A stretch of 64,000 nucleotides of DNA from Erinaceus europaeus (taxonomy: Eukaryota; Chordata; Mammalia; Eulipotyphla; Erinaceidae), in assembly GCF_950295315.1 (NCBI RefSeq), contig NC_080164.1:56869296-56933295 (forward strand), read 5' to 3'. The position numbers and the translations under genes are program-made. The notes beneath the pieces are model-generated. The model ran no database searches and was not told where the DNA came from. It worked only from the letters and a program-made list of their open reading frames with translations. Shown one piece after another: positions 17,970-53,758 of this stretch (position 1 is its first letter; each line of letters opens with the position of its first letter).

Positions 17970-18125
17970 TGCTTCAGCTCAGCTAATTCTCTTCAAGGTA
18001 ATTATTTTCATTATTCCAGTTTTAAAGGTGAATAAACTGAATTTTACAGAAGTTAGATAAATTGCTTACTGTGATTAAATGATTGGGTTAGGATTTAAAC
18101 CAATATGAGTTTAGATTTTGTGATC
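17970..18125 (-). mobile_element. MIR-like SINE relic
   Basis: AGTTTTAAAGGTGAATAAAC then TGAATTTTACAGAAG ... GGGTTAGGATTTAAACCAAT follows the antisense MIR core (acagatgaggaaactgag ... tgggattcgaaccc). Confidence 0.5.
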
Positions 18126-18184
18126 ATTTTATTATACTACGTTGACTTCTAAATATGAACCCACCCAACCAATTGTGTTTTTTT

Positions 18185-18265
18185 GGTGGTTTGGGGGGGG
18201 ATGCCAGGGACTGAAGTTGGGGCCATATTAAGCACTGCTCTACCATAGAACTATGTATGTCTTCA
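18185..18265 (-). mobile_element. Partial tRNA-derived SINE
   Basis: ATGCCAGGGACTGAAGTTGG then TAAGCACTGCTCTACCATAG resembles the head of the minus-strand tRNA-like SINEs nearby. Confidence 0.45.
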
Positions 18266-18875
18266 GTTCTGGGTTGGTAGATTGTAATGTAAGCATTTAA
18301 AGGGCATGGATGAGGTGTTTTACCTTTGTGATCATTTCCCTCTACCTACTCTCAAGTTCTCTTTCTTAGACATCAAACTCATGATGCTTTTCAAACCATC
18401 TGTGAACTGATGACACAGAGAACCAGAGGGGGAAACAATATCTAATAAGATAAAAACAGCTAGGAAGACTAGAGAGAGAAAAATGAGAAGTAGAGAGAAT
18501 TTTAGGACAGTGAAAATATTCTGTTATAATGATGGATGTATTCCATTAAACGTTTCTCCAAGCCTATAGAATGTACAACACTAAGACTTAACTTGTATGT
18601 AAACTATAGACTTTGGATGATTAAGATGTTTGAATGTAGGTTCATTGTAACAAAGGTGCCCTTCTGATAGAGGAGTTTGATAATGGAGAAGACTATACAT
18701 GCATGTGGGATAATGTTTATGGGAAGTCTTTACCATTTTGTTGTGAACCTAAAATTGTTTTAAATAAGCTAAGAGGAGAATCTGGGAAGAGTCCTAAGAA
18801 ACTTGCTTATGATCCTTTCAAGACTGACAGTGGAAGAGAAGGAGCACACTGTTGCCTTGTTTAGAAGTTCCCACT
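18266..18875. other. Unique non-coding sequence
   Basis: No gene or clear repeat seen. Confidence 0.4.
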
Positions 18876-19131
18876 TTTTTTTTCCAATTTCTTCTGCTAT
18901 TTTTTTCTTTATTGGGGGGATTAATGGTTTACAATCAACAGTAAAATGCAATAATTTGTACATGTTTAATACTTCTAAGTTTTTCACACACAACTCAACC
19001 CCCTTTAAACCCTCCTCTGCCATCATGTTCCAGGACCTGAACCCTCCCACACACCTCAGAGTCTTTTACTTTGATGCAATACACCAAACACAGTCCAGGT
19101 CTGCTTTGTGTCTTCTTATCTTTCAGCTTCT

Positions 19132-19484
19132 GTTTTTATATTGTTAGTGATTTGATACTGAAAGACAAGATTGTGGGATAAGAGGGGCACAATTGATACA
19201 ACTCCCACCACCAGCATGCCATCCCCTCCATTGGAAGCTTTCCCATTCTTTATTCCTCTGGGAGTATGGACCAATGATCTCTAAGGGTTACAGAAAGTCA
19301 GAGGTCTGACGTCTATAACCACTTCTCTATTGGGAATGGCCATTGGCAGGTCGATTCATACCCCCAGCCTGTCTCTACATTTCCCTAATGGGGTAGGGTT
19401 CTGGGGAGGTGGATATTCCAGGGAACATTGGTGAGGTCATCTGCCCAGGGCAGTCAGGTCAGCGTCATGGTAGTATTTTTCAAC
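19132..19484 (-). mobile_element. Family X retroposon inside the L1 3' region
   Basis: ATCTTTCAGCTTCT at 19118-19131 and ATTTTTCAACTTCT at 19485-19498 flank it as an aged target duplication. The plus-strand L1 at 51.66 kb lacks this segment, which shows it is a separate insertion rather than L1 sequence. Confidence 0.8.
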
Positions 19485-19900
19485 TTCTATAAGTGAGACC
19501 AATCCATATTCATCCTTCTCTTTCTGACTTATTTCACTTAACATTATTCCTGCAAGCTTCATTCAAGATGAAGTGAAGGAAATGAAATCACCATTTTTAG
19601 TAGCTGAGTAGTATTCCATTATATATATCATAACTTTCTCAGTCACTCTGTTGTTAGACACATGGGTTGCTTCCAGGTTTTGGCTGTTACAAATTGTGCC
19701 ACTATGAACATAGGTTTACAGGAATCTTTTTGGATAGTTGTTTTTGGTTCCTTAGGATATATCCCCAGGAGAGAAATTGCTGGGTCATAGGGTCAAACTG
19801 TTCCTAGCCTTCTGAGAGTTCTCCAGACTGTACTCCACAGAGGTTGGACCAATTTACATTCCCACCAGCCAGTGTAGGAGGGTTCCTTTGTCTCCACACC

Positions 19901-20156
19901 TGTTGGTATGCTTCACATTGGTTTGGTCTCACTCCCCCGCCTCCGGGAGATCGTGGTTTAGTCTTTGCCTTTCGCACTTCTCCCTTCTCCCCGCCCCCTA
20001 TCCTACTACTTCCTGAGTTCCATGCTGCCACTGGAGGAGAAAGATGGAGGAGCACATTGCCCGCTCGTGAATAAAGATTAAACTGCCTTCTCAGCTCATC
20101 CATGTGTTTCTGGTCATCTGTTACCCTCCCATGAAGCCAGCCTGGAGAAAACAACA
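19901..20156 (+). repeat. Retroviral LTR (256 bp)
   Basis: TG...CA bounded. It holds CGCCCCCTATCC, a likely polyadenylation signal GAATAAAG at about 20068, and a GTCATCTGTTACC U5 segment. Its ends and several blocks match the 48444 and 51834 LTRs, but the U3 part is shorter than in the provirus. Confidence 0.85.
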
Positions 20157-20158
20157 TA

Positions 20159-20176
20159 TGGTGCCCAACGTGGGGC
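20159..20176 (+). promoter_or_regulatory. Retroviral primer-binding site, tRNA-Lys(1,2) type
   Basis: TGGTGCCCAACGTGGGGC lies 2 bp after the LTR. It differs at one base from the known tRNA-Lys1,2 site TGGCGCCCAACGTGGGGC. The SEC23IP match begins inside its last 7 bases. Confidence 0.9.
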
Positions 20177-21851
20177 TACTGTAAAATAAAATGTCTAGCA
20201 AGGTATCATTGGTGAAGTGACAAAACCGGCCAATACTCAGGTGATTTTCTTAACATTCCTGTCAACTCCTGTGGCGTCCCCACCCAAAGCACTGTGCCAG
20301 TGGACAGGCAGGAACTCCACTCGACTGGCTTTCTTCTCATCTAAGGATTTCTTGAAATGTGTCTGCAGCAATTTGAGAGAAACCACCCTAAAATCATCCA
20401 CACATTCAATAATGCTTCTAAAGCGCAAGTCACACACAGGGCCAATGCCATGCACCATGAACACCAAGTGGTCAACTTGAGGCATTTCCCTGCCCAGAAT
20501 TTCATCAAGGCTGCCATCAATCCCGTGCTTCACCAACCTGGGTCTTGTCTGTCCTTCCTGTGTGGTCCCTGATTCATCAGGCACTGATGAAGGCTGGAAC
20601 TGAACAATAACCTTTGGATTGTGCATCATGATAGTCTCTCCACTGGGAAACTCCAGCCTGTGGTGCCACTGATTGGTGGTCACAAACTTTTTGTATTCAG
20701 CCTCTAGTTTCTCACTGAATTCTTCCGTATAGGGAATGAACCGGCTGTCCATGTCCCCTTTGTAAAACCAGGTACAGAGTCTCACTTCCATGGGCTCCTC
20801 TTCCCAGTACACAGCCTTCCTCATTCGGTCATAGAGGAAAACATCGTAGCGCCCATCCATGGCCAGAACCACACTCTCAGGGTCTGGCTGGATTGAATTG
20901 TAGGTTTCCTCAAGATTCAGAGAGTCAAACATGCTGAAAGGCATCCACAGCTGCTTGTATTCTACCTCCTTGCAGTAAAACCAGTGGGGCTGAACAGGCT
21001 CATACTGGTTCTGAAGGACAAAAGGAGGTGGCACCTGCACAGAGGGGGCCACCAGCCCTGGCTGCTGTGCAGGAGGGGGGGGCATCCCTGGCTGCACTGA
21101 AGGAGGAACCGGTGGCAAAGATCCAGGGGGCATCTGGTACATCTAGACGGGGGTTGCGGAGGGTGGGTGGTGGGTAGGGTGGCCTGGTGTCTGGCATTGC
21201 TGCAGCTGCGGAGGTGTCTGGCATTGTTGCAGCTGCGGAAGTGTAACGTAAGGATTAGCCCTGCTGCTGACCCGGGTGTGGCGGTATGGATTGTATCCTT
21301 GTTGGGGTGTTCCTTGAGGTGGGTTCCCAAAATTGGAAGGAGGAAAAGGACTCGGCTGCGGTGATCGGTAAGTATTGAGTCCCAGCTGGGGAGAAGCTGG
21401 AGCACCGTACTGCGCCTTCGAAGCAGATGGTGAAGACGCGTCTTGGAATCCAGCGGGAAAAGAGAGCGTGGTTGGGGGCTTGGCGTATGCTGACTGACTG
21501 TCTTGCTGGTGTCGAGGCAGCTGTCAGCAGTGACTGTCCGAGATTCCCAAAAGGATCAATGCTGCTTGATACCTGAGAGAAATAACTGGACGTCTGTGAG
21601 GTGGCTGGGTGAGCAGAGGTCTGACCCAAGAAGCTGTCCTCCTCCCCAACGTCTGTGGAGTCTTCTCCCGGCAAGAGCAGGGAGGCCGAGGCGGTGGCGG
21701 CCTGCATAACCGGAATGAAGGGCACGTTGAAGCTGAACTCGGTGGCCGAAGAGGAAAAGATTAAGTTAGTGCCCGAGGAGGAGGCGGAGGCGCCGCCGCC
21801 AGAGCCAGCCTTCCTCTCGGCCCTGGCTGCAGCCCGCCCGGCCATTACACA
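20170..21851 (-). pseudogene. SEC23IP: SEC23IP (p125) retrocopy, 3'-truncated
   Basis: SEC23IP binds the COPII coat protein SEC23 at ER exit sites; it has a proline-rich N-terminus, a WWE-like region and a C-terminal SAM and DDHD phospholipase-like part. Here the minus strand starts MAG at 21845 and shows GEDSTDVGEEDSFLGQT, the proline-rich segment (about 20990-21250), HWFYCKEVEYKQLW (about 20986-20945), FIPYTEEFSEKLEAEYKK and HGIGPVCDLRFRS. Codons from several exons run on without introns, so the source was spliced mRNA. Frameshifts occur between about 21140 and 21500 and again just after GVDRNVKKIT near 20238; beyond this, homology continues as GRF/RHFTN and LLDILFYSSPT to 20170. It stops before the GxSxG lipase motif. 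No poly(A) tail is present, unlike an L1-made retrocopy. Not expected to make protein. Confidence 0.93.
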
Positions 21852-22149
21852 CACACCCTCTCCAGCATTTCTTGCTGCTACCTTTTCTGATGTATGACAT
21901 TCTCACAGGAGTGAAGTGGTATCTCATTGTTGTCTTTATTTGCATTTCTCTAACAATCAATGATGATACATTTTTTTATATCTTTGTTGGCCTTTTGGTT
22001 CTCTTCTGTGGTGAATATTCTGTTCATATCCTGTCTCCATTTTTCAATATCATTTGTTTTCTTGTTGCTGAGTTTGATGAGTTCTTTGTATATTTTGATT
22101 ATTAGCCTCTGTTGATAGCATTCCCTGGACAAAATTTTATGTATTTTTA

Positions 22150-22265
22150 CCTGTATTCTATATGAATAGATACATTAAGTAACTTGCCTCAGACTAAGAG
22201 ATCCATGTGGCAGGCCTGAAATTTCTAACTGTGAGCATATATCTGACTTCAGAGTCAACACTCAC
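22150..22265 (-). mobile_element. MIR-like relic
   Basis: TTAAGTAACTTGCCTCAGACTAAG resembles the antisense MIR core. Confidence 0.45.
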
Positions 22266-22846
22266 CCACTAACTAGGCTACCTTTCCAATAGTGTATAAC
22301 ACTTTTGAATTATGGGTCATGGTTTCATTAAAAATATTTCTTTATTCCTCTCTATATATTTACAAAGATGACAAAATCCTATAGGGGTAGATAGAAAACT
22401 ATTTCTTCAAAGCAAATAAATGAATTATTTTTCTTAATGCATTATCTAGTATATATATGTATATGCATATATATTAAGTATATGTAAACAAACATAAATC
22501 AGAATATATACATGCATATACATATATATTCAAATTCTTCATGAATATATTTTGCCAAATCCATACTGGGCTTTATCAATATTTCTTCTTTATTTTCTTT
22601 TATGCCAGCAGCTTTCTTTATGCATTTCCATTTTCCACATTTTTCAGAGTGATTGGATTACGTTGTATACCCTTCCTCTGAAATATTAAGTACATACAAT
22701 CTGAATTCACACACATAGGTTCTATAGTTATGATCTATCATTTCAAAATCCACATGTTAAAAAAGAGCAAAACAGGCCTTGGGTGCTCTGAAGTATTAGG
22801 CCCAAGTCACCCCCTGCCATTCATCTTCCCAGTAATGCAGGCACTA
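22266..22846. other. Unique sequence with AT-rich tract
   Basis: TATATG/TATATA low complexity at about 22447-22535; otherwise nothing recognisable. Confidence 0.5.
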
Positions 22847-22988
22847 ACAAGACCCCAGAGTTTCTGTCTCATTGGCAGATATCCTTTGACCTAAAAACAA
22901 GACCCCAGAATTTCTGTCTCATTGGCAGATATCCTTTGTCCTAAAAACCACTGAGAACACACACACACACACACACACACAGACACAC
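22847..22988. repeat. 50-bp tandem duplication and (CA)n
   Basis: ACAAGACCCCAGAGTTTCTG begins a 50-bp unit at 22847-22896 that recurs with two mismatches at 22897-22946. A CA run follows at 22954-22980. Confidence 0.95.
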
Positions 22989-25854
22989 ACGCGTACCTGT
23001 ATTCACCTGATCACATTTACTTTGTATATCTAAGTTGATTGTTCCATTTCATGATGGACTAGTTGCTGCATGGTTTGATAGGAGCAGGGTATTAACTAGT
23101 GTAACATTCCTGAAATTTTTAGAAACTTTTAATTGCCTCTGCCTGATGTTGCTTCTCCCTTCATGTTTCTTCCTCACAACTCTTATCGTTAAGTATGCCT
23201 AGAGTTTAAAGTTAGATAGTCCCTCTTTATTTTTTCCTTCACTTCTGAAAAATATGATAATGCATAGTTTCTTGTTTGACTTATGGAAATTGGTTGTACT
23301 GCTTTCAAGTCAAGCTAAACTTTTTGCAGTATAATTTTCTAGTTAATAGTGTAATTGTGCTAACTTCCTGGACACCCTTATGGCCTGCATTGAGTTCACG
23401 ATTGTATTTCTGCCCTTTTATTCCAGTCTATTTCTGTTGTGTGCATGTTAACACCTTTGGGCACACAGTTACTTTATTGCTGTCTTTTCTTGAAGTTTAC
23501 TGTCTGTAAATTCCAAGTTCCTATTCTCTGCTCAGTGGACTTTCATGACAGGTCTAAGGATGAATCTACAAGCAGAAAAAATACATCGACTGACTTCCAT
23601 ATGTTTTTAGATATCTTCAAGGGGAAATAAATTTAATTGAATTAGTTTGTTCCAAATAAAATAATATTTTGTCTTGTAAAGGCATGATATTTTTCTTGGG
23701 CATTTCACCTGGTAACTATTTATATTTATAAAATCTACAAAACCCAAACACCCAGATCTGGTTAGATATCTTTATACCTTTTCCCAAGTAAGGATATTAT
23801 TACATGTATCTTTGTATCACATATCTCCACATACTCTGTTGGTTAACATTATGGACCAAACATCCTGATTATTTTGTGATATTTTCATAATTCATCTGGA
23901 TGTTTTGGCTTTAGGTATACTTTAGACACAGATTACAAAGTGCTTCCCAGTAGGGTATCCCTTTGAATCTGCTTTATTGATGTAGAACAAAGTTTCAGTT
24001 GGTCACAGGTTTTAATTAAAAAAAAAAAAAAAAAAAGAGTGTTGGCTCACATTCTTCAGTGAAGGTATAGTATGCCTCATATGGAGATATATAAGAAGCT
24101 CCGTCTTCTGATTGTCAAAGTTTACTTCCCTCTTTTCTGATTCTTCTTTGTATTGTTTTACAATCTAGGTATATCTGTTTAACATGAAATGCAGAAAATG
24201 ACAGGGCTCAGACAGCTACTGCATCCAGTGACAAAGATTACTGTCATCCTGGCTCATCAGTTAATTCATCATTGGCAATGGTCCATTCCATTTCCTGGTA
24301 GCCTAGCAACAGCCAATGATGGGGAGGGCTGTTTGCCATGTGACAGTGGTATGTGGTACTTTCCAGAATGCTTTTACATAAAAATAGGATGATAATTTAT
24401 AAATTTACATTTTTATTTTAATAAATGGGAATATTTGGTTTTAGGGTTGACATTCAAAAAGGAGACAATTTTATTTTGCAGACCATGACTTTAAAGTCCT
24501 GGACTAGTGACTTGATAACAGAAATGGAGCTATCAATTTCACACATAAACAGGGTTTAAAGTTGAGCCTGTAAATGCCTTACTTTACCTTAGAATGAGTG
24601 ATATTCTCCTACAGAGTAACTATAAAAATAATGTAATTAAATGAGCTTTTCCTATGTCAGTGCTTGCGTCCTCACATACACATGCACACATAGAACATGA
24701 CATTTTTAGTCTAAACTTTGGCTTCTAATTTTCTTTATCACTAGATAGGAAAGGAAAAAAAAAAGAAAGAGATTCATGAACAACAACAATTACTGTTGTT
24801 CTCAATGCTAAAAGAAATCTCTCAGTTTCTCATATCCTTCTAACTCTCTATTGATGATTCATGGTTCAGCAACTCATTTGAAAATCTGCTCATTTGTTTT
24901 CACTGATTGTATTCCCTGGTTGTTAGTGTGTATAAATGTGTTAGCTACTTTTGAAGCTATCTTCTGTTAAAGAACTGATAGAAAATGCTATTTAAATGTC
25001 ATAATGCTTTTTTCTCTTGTTATGACACTGTCATTGAGTAAATAGTTTTATTTTATTTTAGTGTTATAGTTAAGAAAATCTATAATCACCTCCTCATGAA
25101 TCTTTTTTTAAAATCTATATTTAGCCCCATCTGTGGAGACAGGAGTGGAAAATAGGCGACTATCTAAGACATGAAATCTGTTAAATATTTAAGAGTTCTC
25201 ATCAATGATTTTATTAGACTCCAAGCTCGATAAAGGCCTCACTGACATCTAAAGCCTAATGATTTTTTTAAATATATTTAAAGCCTTGCACTGCACCTTT
25301 AAATATTGAACAATATTGAAAAATATTGAAGCCCTTTTTTTGTATATTAGCTTTAGGCAGAACTGTTGTATGATTTCCACTCCTTTCATGACATTGTAAT
25401 GATGTTACCACATACAACTTTATCTTGCATGAAAAGGTGAAGTCATGAGTGATTTCTCCAATTTAAAAGCACTCAACCCTCACAGTGCTAGAAATGAATA
25501 TTTTGCATATATTCATGCAACAATGATTCAATTTAAGATTTCTATTTTCAAACATTGCTTGAAACCTTCACTATGTTAGTAGTAAAATTGCCAAAATGTG
25601 TAATAAGATTTATTATAAATGAGTAGCATTTTATTTAGTATTTCATGTTAACATGCTTTTAGGGTTACCTGGTTTAGCAGGAAAATTCATCTTTCTTTTC
25701 TAATCAGAGATAACATTTTATTATATTTTTAAAACTACTCTTTCTGTACATACACATATTGTGGTACAAAGTGAATTTTCTCTTGTTGGCAGCACAAACC
25801 CAAACATTGCTCATGTCAGAGTTCAGTGTACCCTCACACTAAACCATTTTTTAA
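22989..25854. other. Unique non-coding sequence
   Basis: A long stretch without a gene. A pure A run lies at about 24018-24036. The segment 24190-24340 is less AT-rich and carries an X-box-like GTAGCCTAGCAAC at 24298-24310 followed by CCAAT at 24313. Confidence 0.45.
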
Positions 25855-48443: not shown

Positions 48444-48738
48444 TGTTGTTAAAGTTCGGAGGCTCCCACAGGCCAGGCTAGCGTCGCAGCGGTAGACAGA
48501 GACAGAGACTTGGGGACACACGGCTGGGCTGAGAAGCTGCAGTTTAATCTTTATTCACGAACAGGCAAATCACCACACCATGTGCTTCACCATCATTCTC
48601 CCACTGCTGCTGCTGGAACTCTGGACATCTTTAGCATAGGGGGCGGGGAGAAAGCGGGGTGTGAAACTAGCAAGGGCCAAACCAATTCTCTCAGAGGTCG
48701 GGGGGAAGGGGAGCAAACCAATATGAAACATACCAACA
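48444..48738 (-). mobile_element. Solo LTR of the TGTTGG family (295 bp)
   Basis: On the minus strand it begins TGTTGGTATGTTTCATATTGG at 48738 and ends ...TTTAACAACA at 48444, with GAATAAAG at about 48560. CCACCA at 48438-48443 and 48739-48744 is an exact 6-bp duplication. A solo LTR usually results from recombination between the two LTRs of a provirus. Confidence 0.93.
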
Positions 48739-48771: not shown

Positions 48772-51543
48772 AAAACTCTACAAGAATGGCGTTAAAATAT
48801 CTTCAATCTTTGATATCAGTAAATTGTCAATGACCTGAATTCACCTATTAAAAGACACAGAGAAGGAAGATGGATCAGAAAACACAACCCAACAATATGC
48901 TGTCTACAGGAAACCCACCTAACTCAACAAGACAAACACAGACTTAAAGTGAAAGGATGGAAAACTATCATACAAGCCAATGGCCCACAAAAAAGGGCAG
49001 GAACAGCTATTCTCATATCTGACACGATAGACATTAAAATAGATAAGATTAAAAAAGGAATGGACACTACATAATGCTCAGAGGATTAGTCAATGAAGAG
49101 GACTTAACAATTATTAACATTATTAACATCTATGCACCCAATGAGAAGCCATCTAAATACAACAAACATCTACTGAAAGACCTACAGAAATATATTAACA
49201 GCAACACAGTCATAGTAGGGGACTTCAACACCCCACTCTCTCAACTTGACAGATCATCCAAGCAGAAAATCAATAAAGACATAAGGGAGTTAAATGAAGA
49301 GATAGATAAACTAGAACTGTTGGATATTTTCAGAGTCATTCATTCCAAGAAACTGGAATACACATTTTATTCAAATCCACATGGGTCATTCTCAAGAACA
49401 GACCATATGTTAGGCCACAAGGACAAATTCAAGAGCACTGAAATCATCCCAAGCATCTTCTCAGACCACAGTGGAATTAAACTAAAACTTAACAATCAAC
49501 AAAAGACTAGTAATAGTCCCAAAATGTGGAAGCTCAACAGCACACTTCTGAACAACTTCTGGGTCAAAGAGGAAATAAGGGAAGAAATCAAAATGTTTCA
49601 AGAGTTCAATGAAAACGAAGACACAAGCTATCAAAATATTTGGGACACAGCTAAGGCAGTACTGAGAGGGAAGTTCATAGCTATACAAGCACACATTAGG
49701 AAACAAGAAAAAGCACAAATAAACAGCCTGATTGCACATCTTAAAGACCTAGAATAAGAACAATGGAACCCTAAAGCAACCAGAAGGACAGAAATCACTA
49801 AAGTTAGGGCAGAAATAAATAACACTGAGAATAAGAAAACCATACAAAAGATCAATAAAAGTAAATGTTGGTTCTTCGAAAGAGTGAACAAAATCCATAA
49901 ACCTTTAGCCAGACGCACAAAACCAAAAAGGGAGAAAACCCAAATAAATTGGATACTAAATGAAAGAGGAGATATCACAACAGACACTGCAGAAATTCAA
50001 CATATCATGTGAGGCTTCTATGAACAACTATATGCCACCAAGCTAGAGAACCTGGAAGAAATGGACGATTTCCTAGATACCTACCAACTTCCAAAACTAA
50101 GTCAAGAGGAAGTGGATAACATGAACAGGCCCATCACAGCTAATGTAATTGAAACAGTTATGAAAAATCTCCCCAAAAATAAAAGTCCTGGACCAGATGG
50201 TTTTACAAATGAATTCTACAAAACCTTTAAAGAACTAATGCCTCTACTTTTAAAAGTCTTCCAGAAGATTGAAGACGCTGGAGTACTCCCTGCCAGCTTC
50301 TATGCAGCCAACATCACTCTGATACCAAAAGCAGACAGGGACACAACCAAAAAAGAAAACTACAGACCAATATCTATCTATTTCTGGAACCAGAAAAGAC
50401 CTAGAATTGCCAAAACAATCTTGAGAAAAAAGAACAGAACCGGAGGCATCACACTCCCAGATCTCAAATTGTATTGTAGGGCCATTGGCATCAAAACTGC
50501 TTGGTACTGGAACATGAATAGACACACTGACCAGTCAAATAGAATTGAGAGCCCAGAAGTGAGCCCCCACACCTGTGGACATCTAATACTTGACAAAGGG
50601 GCCCAGACTACTAAATTAGGAAAGCAGAATCTCTTCAACAAATGGTGTTGGAAACAATGGGTTGAAACATACAGAAGAATGAAACTGAACCACTGAATTT
50701 CACCAAATACAAAAGTAAATTCCAAGTGGATCAAAGACTTGGATGTTAGACCAGAAACTATCAGATACTTAGAGGAAAATATTGGCAGAACTCTTTTCCG
50801 CATACATTTTAAAGACATCTTCAATGAAGTGAATCCATTTACAAAGAAGACTAAGGCATGTATAAACTTATGGGACTACATCAAATTAAAAAGCTTCTTC
50901 ACAGCAAAAGAAACCATTACCCAAACCAAGAGACCTCTCACAGAATGGGAGAAGATCTTTACATGCCATACATCAGACAAGAGTTTAATAACCAACATAT
51001 ATAAAGAGCTTGCCAAATGTAACAACAAGACAGCAAATAACCCCATCAAAAAATGGGCAGAGGACATGGACAGAATATTCACCACAGAAGAGATCCAAAA
51101 GGCTGAGAAACACATGAAAAAATGCTCCAAGTCTCTGATTGGCAGAGAAATGCAAATAAAGACAACAATGAGATACCACTCACTCCTATGAGAATGTCAT
51201 ACATCAGAAAAGGTAACAGCAGCAAGTGCTGGAGTGTGGGGTCAAAGGAACCCTCCTGCACTGCTGGTGGGAATGTAGATTGGTCCAACCTCTGTGGAGA
51301 ACAGTCTTGAAAACTCTCAGAAGGCTAGAAATGGACCTACCCTATGATCTTGCAATTCCTCTTCTGGCGATATATACTAAAGAACCCAACACATCCATCC
51401 AAAAAGATCTGTGTACACATATGTTCTTAGTAGCACAATTTGTAATAGCCAAAACCTGGAAGCAACCCGGGTGTCAAACAACAGATGAATGGCTAAGTAA
51501 GTTGTCATATATATATATACAATGGAATAAAACTCAGCTGTGA
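48772..51543 (+). pseudogene. L1 ORF2 (endonuclease-reverse transcriptase) remnant
   Basis: ORF2p nicks target DNA and reverse-transcribes the L1 RNA. The endonuclease part is seen as [52 protein letters not shown] and a catalytic-type SDHSGIKL (49074-49757 is open). A degraded stretch follows, then 50061-50375 gives [20 protein letters not shown] and ENYRPIS. At about 50376 the frame jumps straight to [14 protein letters not shown], so the RT core with its FADD active site is missing. The C-terminus continues with [25 protein letters not shown], a frameshift near 51184, and [12 protein letters not shown] and KTWKQPGCQTTDEWL to 51543. Confidence 0.92.
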
Positions 51544-51833
51544 AAAATGGTTACTTACCGTTTTTAGCTGATCTTGGATGGACCTTGAAAAATTCATGTT
51601 AAGTTAAATAAGTCAGAATCAGAAGAATGAATATGGGATGATCTCACTCTCAGGCAGAAGTTGAAAAACAAGATCAGAAGAAAAAAAAAAAAAAAACAGG
51701 TAGAACCTGAAATGGAATTGTCGAATTGCACCAAAGTAAAAGACTCTGGGGTGGGGAGGATACAGGTCCAAGAAGGATGACAGAGGACCTAGTGGGGGTT
51801 TTATTGTTATATGGGAAACTGGGGAATGTTATG

Positions 51834-52194
51834 TGTTGGTATGCTTCTGGATTCTGCTTCTAAGACCCCTTCTGTTTCATTGGTTTAATCCCCCCTGCTT
51901 GGCACTGTATTCTATTTACATAACCACTGTTAACTAAGCACCCCCTGCCTCCGGGACATTGGTTTAATCCTCACTGGTTCGTGCTTTTAACTTCTCCCCA
52001 CCCCTTATCATATGTACTTCCTTGTTACTGATTCTTCTCTCTCAGGAGAGAGGCAGGGGAGAATTTTGTTGTGATTAGAAGAGATTAGATTGTTGAACTG
52101 CATCCCCACTTGTCAATAAAGAGATACTGCTTCCCAGCTCAGCCATGAGTCCCTGGTCATCTCTCTCTCTCCCGCCCATGAAGCTAGCACGACA
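51834..52194 (+). repeat. 5' LTR (361 bp)
   Basis: TGTTGGTATGCTTCTGG start, CCCACCCCTTATCATA promoter-side region, CAATAAAGAG polyadenylation signal at about 52116 and a CTAGCACGACA end. Confidence 0.93.
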
Positions 52195-52197
52195 AAA

Positions 52198-52215
52198 TGG
52201 TACCCGATCAGGGAC
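52198..52215 (+). promoter_or_regulatory. Primer-binding site, tRNA-Lys3-like
   Basis: TGGTACCCGATCAGGGAC lies 3 bp after the LTR. It differs at three bases from TGGCGCCCGAACAGGGAC; two of them fall in a CG-rich step prone to decay. Confidence 0.75.
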
Positions 52216-52389
52216 ATGAATCTCAGCTCCATACACATGCATTAGATCAAAGGAGACCAGATAAGTAAAGCCACCATGGCCTACCTTTCTACTTATGAAG
52301 AGGTTTCCAAAAGCCTCTAACCTTTCTTCATGAGACAGTTTCTCTGTCTTTGGAACATTTTGCTCTGGGCCACACTTTGGTTCCATCTG

Positions 52390-52762
52390 CCACCCACCTA
52401 CCGGAGTCTGCTTGCCGCAGCGGGGTGCAGGGTGCTGGGCGTGGGCTCCCTCCATGCTGCTTGGCTTCTGGGGGCAGGGTGGCAGGCACGGTGGACAGGG
52501 CTGCGGCCCATCCCGCCCCCTGCCCCGGGGCACCTCAGCCAGTGCCTTCTACATGGTTGTCCCGCCCGCCCGCCTTCCTGCTATGATGCCTGGGCAGATC
52601 CTGGACCCCTCAGTGACCACAGGCTCCCTGCCAGGACTGGGCCTCCTGCCTGGTATCCCCAGCTCGGCTCTGATGGCAGAGGAGCTGAAATACGCAGACA
52701 TCTGTGCAGTGATCACACCCCTGTAATTCCTGGAGGTGAAGTTGGACAAGAGGCCATCGCCG
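52390..52762 (+). pseudogene. JDP2: Captured JDP2 5' fragment
   Basis: JDP2 (Jun dimerization protein 2) is a nuclear bZIP repressor that pairs with Jun and AP-1 sites. A GC-rich leader of about 190 bp, unlike the AT-rich surroundings, leads to ATGATG at 52583. The frame gives DPSVTTGSLPGLG, IPSSAL, EELKYADI and, after a TAA at 52724, FLEVKLDKRP, matching the first 60 or so residues of JDP2 in order. Compared with the known protein, three residues are missing after EELKYADI and a stop replaces the histidine before FLEVK. The match ends at KRP; the basic region and leucine zipper are absent. The open frame extends upstream to 52412, giving 104 codons. The piece may lie within one exon, so mRNA or genomic origin cannot be told apart here. 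It lies in the same sense as the LTRs. Confidence 0.9.
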
Positions 52763-53116
52763 GACAACACACCCCCCAAAACCAATGATGTGACCTGGCA
52801 CAACCTAAAGAAACAGATCCACAGACTCCAAAGCTCACTCTCTACAGAAAAGTGGAATTCCGGTGGCTGACCTTCCCCATTGAGACAGATATGCAGCATT
52901 TCATCCCCTGCCATTTCTCCCCCTAGTCACCTACTTTGGACTGACATTTCTATTGGACTTGCTGGTTTACCCTTTGGACACTTTACACAATTTTACAGCA
53001 GATTCCTTCCCTTCATGCTGCTGGTTTCTCAAAGACTGACCACAGCAGTCCATGGAAGTTGCAGCCAGCAGCCTTGCAGATTCTATAGGCCACACCCCTC
53101 CCTCCTTGCTAGGTCC
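52763..53116 (+). other. Provirus interior of unknown origin
   Basis: After the JDP2 breakpoint the frame reads NDVTWHNLKKQIHRLQSS and then closes. I do not recognise this; it could be a viral remnant or a second host fragment. Confidence 0.5.
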
Positions 53117-53233
53117 TGCCCACAGAGGCAGGAAATGCCCATTGAGGCATGAAACACCCCCAGAGACAAGAGATGCCCACAGAGGCAGGAAACGTCCTTT
53201 AGCCTGATAGGCCTTGCCTGTTGAGGCAAGAAA
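53117..53233 (+). repeat. 19-bp tandem repeats in the provirus interior
   Basis: TGCCCACAGAGGCAGGAAA-type units start at 53117, 53136, 53155 and 53174 with exact 19-bp spacing; a related unit stands at 53215. Degenerate between copies. Confidence 0.85.
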
Positions 53234-53380
53234 CGCCCCCCTCAGGCCTCCCCTTGGCATCACACTGGTTCTTGCTGCTCTCTTACTTGTTCCTCCATGT
53301 CTTGTGCCAGTTCTTTTGAAAATGCCTATATGATATAGGTTTCTGTTCACCCCACACTCCTGATACCATGGCCATTAGTT

Positions 53381-53395
53381 AAAAAGAAAGGGGGA
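53381..53395 (+). promoter_or_regulatory. Polypurine tract
   Basis: AAAAAGAAAGGGGGA lies just before the 3' LTR, the expected place for plus-strand priming. Confidence 0.88.
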
Positions 53396-53397
53396 AT

Positions 53398-53758
53398 TGT
53401 TGGTATGCTTTTGGATTCTGCTTCTAAGACCCCCTTCTGTTTCATTGGTTTAATCCCCTCTGCTTGACACTGTATTCTATTTACATAACCACTGTTAACT
53501 AAGCAACCCCCTGCCTCTGGGACATTGGTTTAATCCTCACTGGTTCGTGCTTTTTCCTTCTCCCCGCCCCCTATCGTATGTACTTCCTTGTTCCTGATTC
53601 TTATGCCTCAGGAGAGAGGCAGGACAGAATTGTGTTGTGATTAGAAGAGATTAGATTGTTGAACCACATCCCTGCTCATCAATAAAGAGATACTGCTTCC
53701 CAGCTCAGCCATGAGTCCTTGGTCATCTCTCTCTCCCACCTGCAAAGCTAGCACAACA
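53398..53758 (+). repeat. 3' LTR (361 bp)
   Basis: Same length and layout as the 5' LTR, with CAATAAAGAG at about 53680 and an AGCACAACA end. Confidence 0.93.

Follow-up and report, generated by a model that had tools for sequence, protein, structure and literature searches.

A 1,951-bp insertion at positions 19901-21851 of a 64,000-nt stretch of the Erinaceus europaeus genome (contig NC_080164.1; hereafter the window, to which all positions refer) joins a single retroviral long terminal repeat (LTR) and its primer-binding site to an antisense, intron-free copy of the mRNA of the host gene SEC23IP. We interpret this insertion as the integrated outcome of retroviral reverse transcription that went astray, in which strong-stop DNA would have served as the primer on SEC23IP mRNA, and assign this interpretation a probability of roughly three in four.

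The boundaries of the insertion were determined by direct reading of the sequence and with an exact-coordinate script. The element begins with TG, ends with CA, and is flanked by exact CACACC target-site duplications at 19895-19900 and 21852-21857. It consists of a 256-bp LTR (19901-20156, plus strand), the dinucleotide TA (20157-20158), an 18-nt primer-binding site (20159-20176, plus strand), and 1,675 bp of minus-strand SEC23IP sequence (20177-21851), in that order. An initial annotation of this DNA had described the same arrangement of one LTR, primer site, and reverse SEC23IP copy between exact CACACC duplications with TG...CA ends, and both the coordinates and the tblastn alignments agree with that description. 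The window contains 62,037 stretches of 1,951 bp, and TG...CA ends directly bordered by a perfect 6-bp repeat are found for this one alone. A repeat search of 19000-22200 and a blastn search of the window with the LTR revealed no second LTR in 19901-21851, the 1,951-bp element leaves no space for a viral gene, and a poly(A) tract is absent from the mRNA 3' side of the SEC23IP copy, where the primer site and the LTR stand; the initial annotation, which had reported all three features as missing, is borne out. The SEC23IP sequence directly adjoins the right duplication, such that the element carries a single LTR and not LTRs at both ends. It is also not a solo LTR, as the right end of the 256-bp LTR runs into the TA and the primer site and not into a duplication. 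The right boundary can be placed at either of two positions that differ by one CA unit, and the element may end either with ..CCATTACA followed by a CA unit that arose by slippage or with ..CCATTACACA. At this junction, positions 21850-21857 read CACACACC compared to CACACC at the left, meaning that the element ends in ..TTACACA or that a CA unit was gained.

The LTR starts with TGTTGGTATG, ends with AACAACA, and contains an AATAAA. These ends were identified by comparison with a 295-bp solo LTR of the same group, which was found by blastn and exact coordinates on the minus strand at 48444-48738, between perfect 6-bp duplications of TGGTGG. In the alignment of 19901-20156 with 48738-48516 (minus strand), 164 of 226 columns are identical, and the start and the end of the LTR are common to both sequences. 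Relatives of the LTR were identified by blastn at only three places in the window, at approximately 48.5-48.7, 51.9-52.2, and 53.5-53.7 kb. The primer-binding site, TGGTGCCCAACGTGGGGC, is identical at 17 of 18 positions to the tRNA-Lys1,2 primer-site consensus printed in PMC8775094 and PMC1084362, and the sole mismatch is a C to T change at a CpG. Allowing up to three mismatches, the primer site occurs once in the window, compared to a mean of 0.01 in shuffled sequence. The 6-bp target-site duplication has the same size as those of two related insertions in the window. A primer site for tRNA-Lys and a 6-bp duplication are traits of class II, betaretrovirus-like endogenous retroviruses (ERVs), and by these two traits the LTR is probably of the class II ERV type, the element having no viral gene with which to place it further. 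Four Rfam matches were obtained within 18000-24000, all below the gathering score of their families and all outside of the element, and ARAGORN found no tRNA genes in the window.

The host-derived part of the element was identified by a protein search with its 301-aa reading frame, for which the best 120 of 1,515 matches were examined. First among the matches listed is Erinaceus europaeus SEC23IP (P0001, 998 aa), which is 94% identical over the 301-aa frame. A tblastn search with this protein aligned residues 2-109, 108-517, and 520-542 colinearly on the minus strand at 91-92% identity (with the default filter, the alignment begins at residue 19). The copy encompasses codons 1-542, the last of which is finished by bases of the primer site, and 25-27 nt of the 5' untranslated region (UTR). 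The antisense SEC23IP mRNA copy of the initial annotation stands, with the limitation that copying covered no more than the 5' 54% of the coding sequence (542 of 998 codons) and part of the 5'UTR. The copy is disabled by two frame changes, one stop, and conversion of the start codon from ATG to AGG, and it differs from the parent protein at 34 of 523 aligned residues. If the parent is assumed to be unchanged and the non-synonymous fraction is taken as 0.759, the neutral divergence of the copy can be roughly estimated at ~3%. A 27-bp tandem duplication that has no counterpart in the parent protein is located at 21186-21239. Among the collections of viral contigs and genome contigs, 4 and 37 pattern matches to SEC23IP-coding DNA, respectively, were obtained and none were confirmed, and no solved structure matched the 301-aa frame.

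The proteins listed also provide information on the template. Alternative N-termini in 4 of the 120 proteins (P0045, P0046, P0060, and P0079), three of which were aligned, join the common SEC23IP sequence at G|EDSTDVG, which suggests that this position marks an exon boundary. Because the copy passes this boundary without an intron and is colinear throughout, its template was a spliced SEC23IP transcript. The right end of the element (21825-21851, minus strand) was recognized as 5'UTR from the in-frame 5'UTR codons of relatives. In the copy, TGTAATGGCCGGGCGGGCTGCAGCC precedes the start codon and, with one 1-nt length difference, fits the 5'UTR codons TC[N/I]G[W/R]WAAAM, which are translated in 5 of the 120 listed proteins, namely four Myotis myotis isoforms (P0035, P0036, P0038, and P0039) and P0055. 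As the Myotis models begin 55 codons upstream of the start codon, the end of the copy is probably located inside the 5'UTR.

The insertion interrupts an L1 relic, for which a second, paralogous copy without the insertion is present in the window (50980-51668, minus strand) and was taken as the empty site. The left part of the target (19504-19894) is 79% identical to 51668-51234 on the minus strand and the right part (21858-22140) is 81% identical to 51234-50980 on the same strand, such that the two flank matches meet at 51234. When the flanks were joined without the insertion and aligned with the L1 at 50980-51636 (minus strand), 531 of 665 columns were identical and 23 were gap columns. Comparison to an empty L1 copy had been proposed in the initial annotation as a check for separate arrivals of the LTR and SEC23IP, and because the second copy runs uninterrupted across the site, the two arrived together. 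Exactly at the insertion site, 4 bases are missing from the second copy, and the alignment demonstrates contiguity of the flanks rather than a single CACACC letter by letter.

The position at which the ERV sequence gives way to SEC23IP is the last base of the 18-nt primer site (20176). According to PMC13191261, plus-strand strong-stop DNA of HIV-1 normally halts before m1A58, a modification that is called conserved there, with Lys3 among the primer tRNAs listed. The 3' end of the primer site, GTGGGGC (20170-20176, plus strand), reads GCCCCAC in the other sense and was assigned as a putative microhomology joint by peptide homology. Read as mRNA, the copy runs TTT TAC AGT AGC CCC AC and then exits SEC23IP; the parent peptide is F-Y-S-S-P-T, and the homology to FYSSPT, in which S-P-T fits GCCCCAC, extends 7 nt into the primer site. 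With G, Y, CC, and AC fixed, a 7-mer drawn at random would agree with the peptide in approximately 1 of 2,000 cases. Away from the joint, the 1,675 nt of copied sequence contain GCCCCAC at 1 of 1,669 positions (20984-20990), and a random joint would therefore rarely land on this sequence. The T at 20177, beside the 7 nt, presumably fits both the SEC23IP mRNA and A58 of the tRNA. Pairing over the 7 bp was calculated at -13.5 kcal/mol with RNA parameters, the real hybrid being DNA-RNA.

These features can be accommodated in a single pathway. Plus-strand strong-stop DNA, comprising U3-R-U5 and the 18 nt derived from the primer tRNA-Lys1,2, would miss the second strand transfer, in which its normal partner is the minus-strand primer site. 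Its 3' end, GTGGGGC, would anneal to a spliced SEC23IP mRNA packaged in the same particle, at the GCCCCAC of approximately codons 540-542, and would prime the synthesis of antisense cDNA to near the 5' end of the mRNA, placing LTR, primer site, and antisense cDNA in one strand. The second strand would then be synthesized through the LTR up to the end of U3, and integrase would join the true U3 end and a cDNA end terminating by chance in ACA into the L1 relic, thereby duplicating 6 bp. The antisense orientation is predicted by this pathway because the strand with the LTR and the primer site is the first-strand cDNA of the mRNA. The initial annotation had left this orientation unexplained, and the location of the joint at the end of the primer site suggests strong-stop priming as its origin. 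With respect to the remainder of the initial proposal, the retroviral origin is upheld by the LTR ends shared with the solo LTR, the primer site, the 6-bp duplication, and the lack of L1 marks, and reverse transcription of a host mRNA by the intron-free colinearity across G|EDSTDVG, whereas co-packaging of the mRNA and insertion by integrase, as well as annealing and the order of strand synthesis, are steps that we infer.

Several observations weigh against priming of strong-stop DNA on the SEC23IP mRNA. At its right side the element lacks an LTR terminus, and an end of this kind is expected to be a poor substrate for integrases. The cDNA ends within the 5'UTR, at no demonstrated cap site. Another perfect match to the end of the primer site, AGCCCCAC in the mRNA sense (20984-20991), was not used; it would have primed a shorter copy, and match length was therefore not the sole factor. 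The overlap at the joint is known at the peptide level, and only 16 of the 128 possible codings of SSPTYC (beginning AGTAG) share at least 7 nt with the primer site. The shared run is 1, 4, 7, or 9 nt in 64, 48, 12, and 4 of the 128 codings, respectively, and the overlap in nucleotides may have any of these four lengths. In addition, the accessible text of PMC13191261 does not mention m1A58 for tRNA-Lys1,2 in particular, and the pathway is based on one locus in the single window examined.

A several-nucleotide overlap at the joint, as obtained with half of the possible codings (4-9 nt), would equally suit microhomology-mediated end joining of a double-stranded LTR-primer site fragment to a separate SEC23IP cDNA, with subsequent integration of the product. 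However, the separate cDNA would need its own primer exactly at an internal site of the mRNA, and the ERV fragment must still finish exactly at the strong-stop point, which makes this route unlikely. Classical LTR-mediated retrocopying, in which a template switch between ERV RNA and mRNA would have given a two-LTR product that was later trimmed to one LTR, has a precedent in the model of LTR-mediated retroposition set out in the review PMC5408686, and a two-LTR element in the window that carries a fragment of JDP2 (jun dimerization protein 2) resembles such a product. This model predicts host sequence between two LTRs, in the sense orientation if the switch was from RNA to RNA, whereas the SEC23IP copy is antisense and accompanied by one LTR. 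Because the end opposite the LTR directly abuts the target duplication, trimming of a two-LTR product is largely ruled out, and we regard retrocopying of this kind as quite improbable.

Even less credence is given to explanations that do not involve retroviral integration of a single product. If L1 had retrotransposed a chimeric transcript reading from SEC23IP into an antisense LTR, that transcript would need to stop exactly at the U3 boundary, and both LTR ends are exact. L1 retrocopies have duplications longer than ~7 bp and a cut consensus of TTTT/AA, whereas here the duplication is 6 bp, the target was cut at TCTC/CACACC, and poly(A) is absent; we consider this origin very improbable. Nested insertions are common in repeat-rich DNA, and the LTR and a SEC23IP retrocopy could in principle have been inserted separately or have been joined by an assembly error. 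This, too, has a very low probability, as one pair of duplications encloses both sequences, the LTR is followed by the primer site and not by CACACC, the second L1 copy is uninterrupted, and no runs of N, which bear on the question of an assembly join, are present across the window. A solo LTR, an L1 retrocopy, nested insertions, and a trimmed two-LTR provirus were thus rejected on the anatomy, the duplications, and the empty L1 site. The first two of these and a normal provirus had already been dismissed in the initial annotation, in agreement with the lack of an A-tail, the 6-bp duplication, and the single LTR followed by the primer site.

The insertion shares features with known types of product. 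Metazoan LTR-mediated retrocopies (Tan et al. 2016, Genome Research), as summarized in PMC5408686, likewise contain spliced host mRNA joined to an LTR element, there via microsimilarity and here with an overlap seen at the peptide level, and are inserted by the machinery of the element, but they arise by template switching and have LTRs at the ends of the product, whereas 19901-21851 is antisense, has one LTR, and is joined at the strong-stop end. Processed pseudogenes made by L1 are also intron-free and carry disabling mutations; unlike these, the SEC23IP copy has no A-tail, a 6-bp duplication, no L1-type cut, and an LTR and primer site attached. Normal plus-strand strong-stop DNA, as described in the accessible text of PMC13191261, ends after the 18-nt primer site, as does the ERV part here, but the transfers described there are normal or over-extended and do not involve priming on a host mRNA. 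An antisense, single-LTR, strong-stop-primed form was not described in the titles or abstract openings found in the open-access literature on retrocopies, strong-stop DNA, Ty1 recombination, and hedgehog ERVs. LTR-mediated retrocopying is known (PMC5408686), and the antisense one-LTR form appears to be new as far as the searches of the open-access literature extend.

Laboratory viruses are the usual setting for studies of the second strand transfer. At 19901-21851, a germline insertion appears to preserve a misdirected transfer, and its joint lies where synthesis would be expected to stop. Priming by strong-stop DNA on host mRNA packaged in the same particle may be a gene-copying route, as yet without a name, that hedgehog class II ERVs have taken repeatedly; this proposal is tentative, and we consider it possible but doubtful. 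If it is correct, each event would leave a one-LTR insertion with the LTR promoter directed toward antisense host gene sequence, an arrangement immediately suited to producing antisense or double-stranded RNA against the parent gene, and integrase would accept one true LTR end together with a CA-ended cDNA. Strong-stop priming on host mRNA would also supply the genome with antisense gene copies linked to an LTR. The insertion suggests a simple signature of such events, consisting of an LTR, a complete 18-nt primer site, antisense mRNA sequence starting from a motif that resembles the primer site, and a 6-bp duplication, for which any genome can be searched. Such a search would reveal the frequency with which host messages are copied in ERV particles and would indicate if cDNAs with one LTR become integrated between normal duplications.

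The JDP2-containing element is located at 51834-53758, 30 kb from the SEC23IP insertion, between the duplications GTTATG and GTTACG, as determined from exact coordinates. Its LTRs are 8.1% apart, and its primer site, TGGTACCCGATCAGGGAC, agrees with the Lys3 site at 15 of 18 positions. The JDP2 fragment (52577-52762) was identified by protein alignment and is 83% identical over 60 residues to Erinaceus europaeus JDP2, with which alone, among six JDP2-like proteins aligned, it shares a three-residue deletion. No Pfam match was obtained in four reading frames of the element. Like 19901-21851, the JDP2 element has an LTR of a related group, a 6-bp duplication (with one base changed), and a host gene inside, but it contains two LTRs and its host fragment is in the sense orientation relative to the element. 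That two LTR insertions within 34 kb carry different host genes suggests that this ERV group is prone to host gene capture (n = 2, one window), and the second host fragment counts in favor of the pathway proposed for 19901-21851. Among the JDP2 matches listed, the vespertilionid bats Myotis, Eptesicus, and Cnephaeus, as well as Lepus, each have several JDP2-like predicted proteins, which are perhaps multicopy retrocopies or ERV-borne copies. Apart from these LTR insertions, a 50-bp unit is present at 22846-22948 in two tandem copies that match at 96%.
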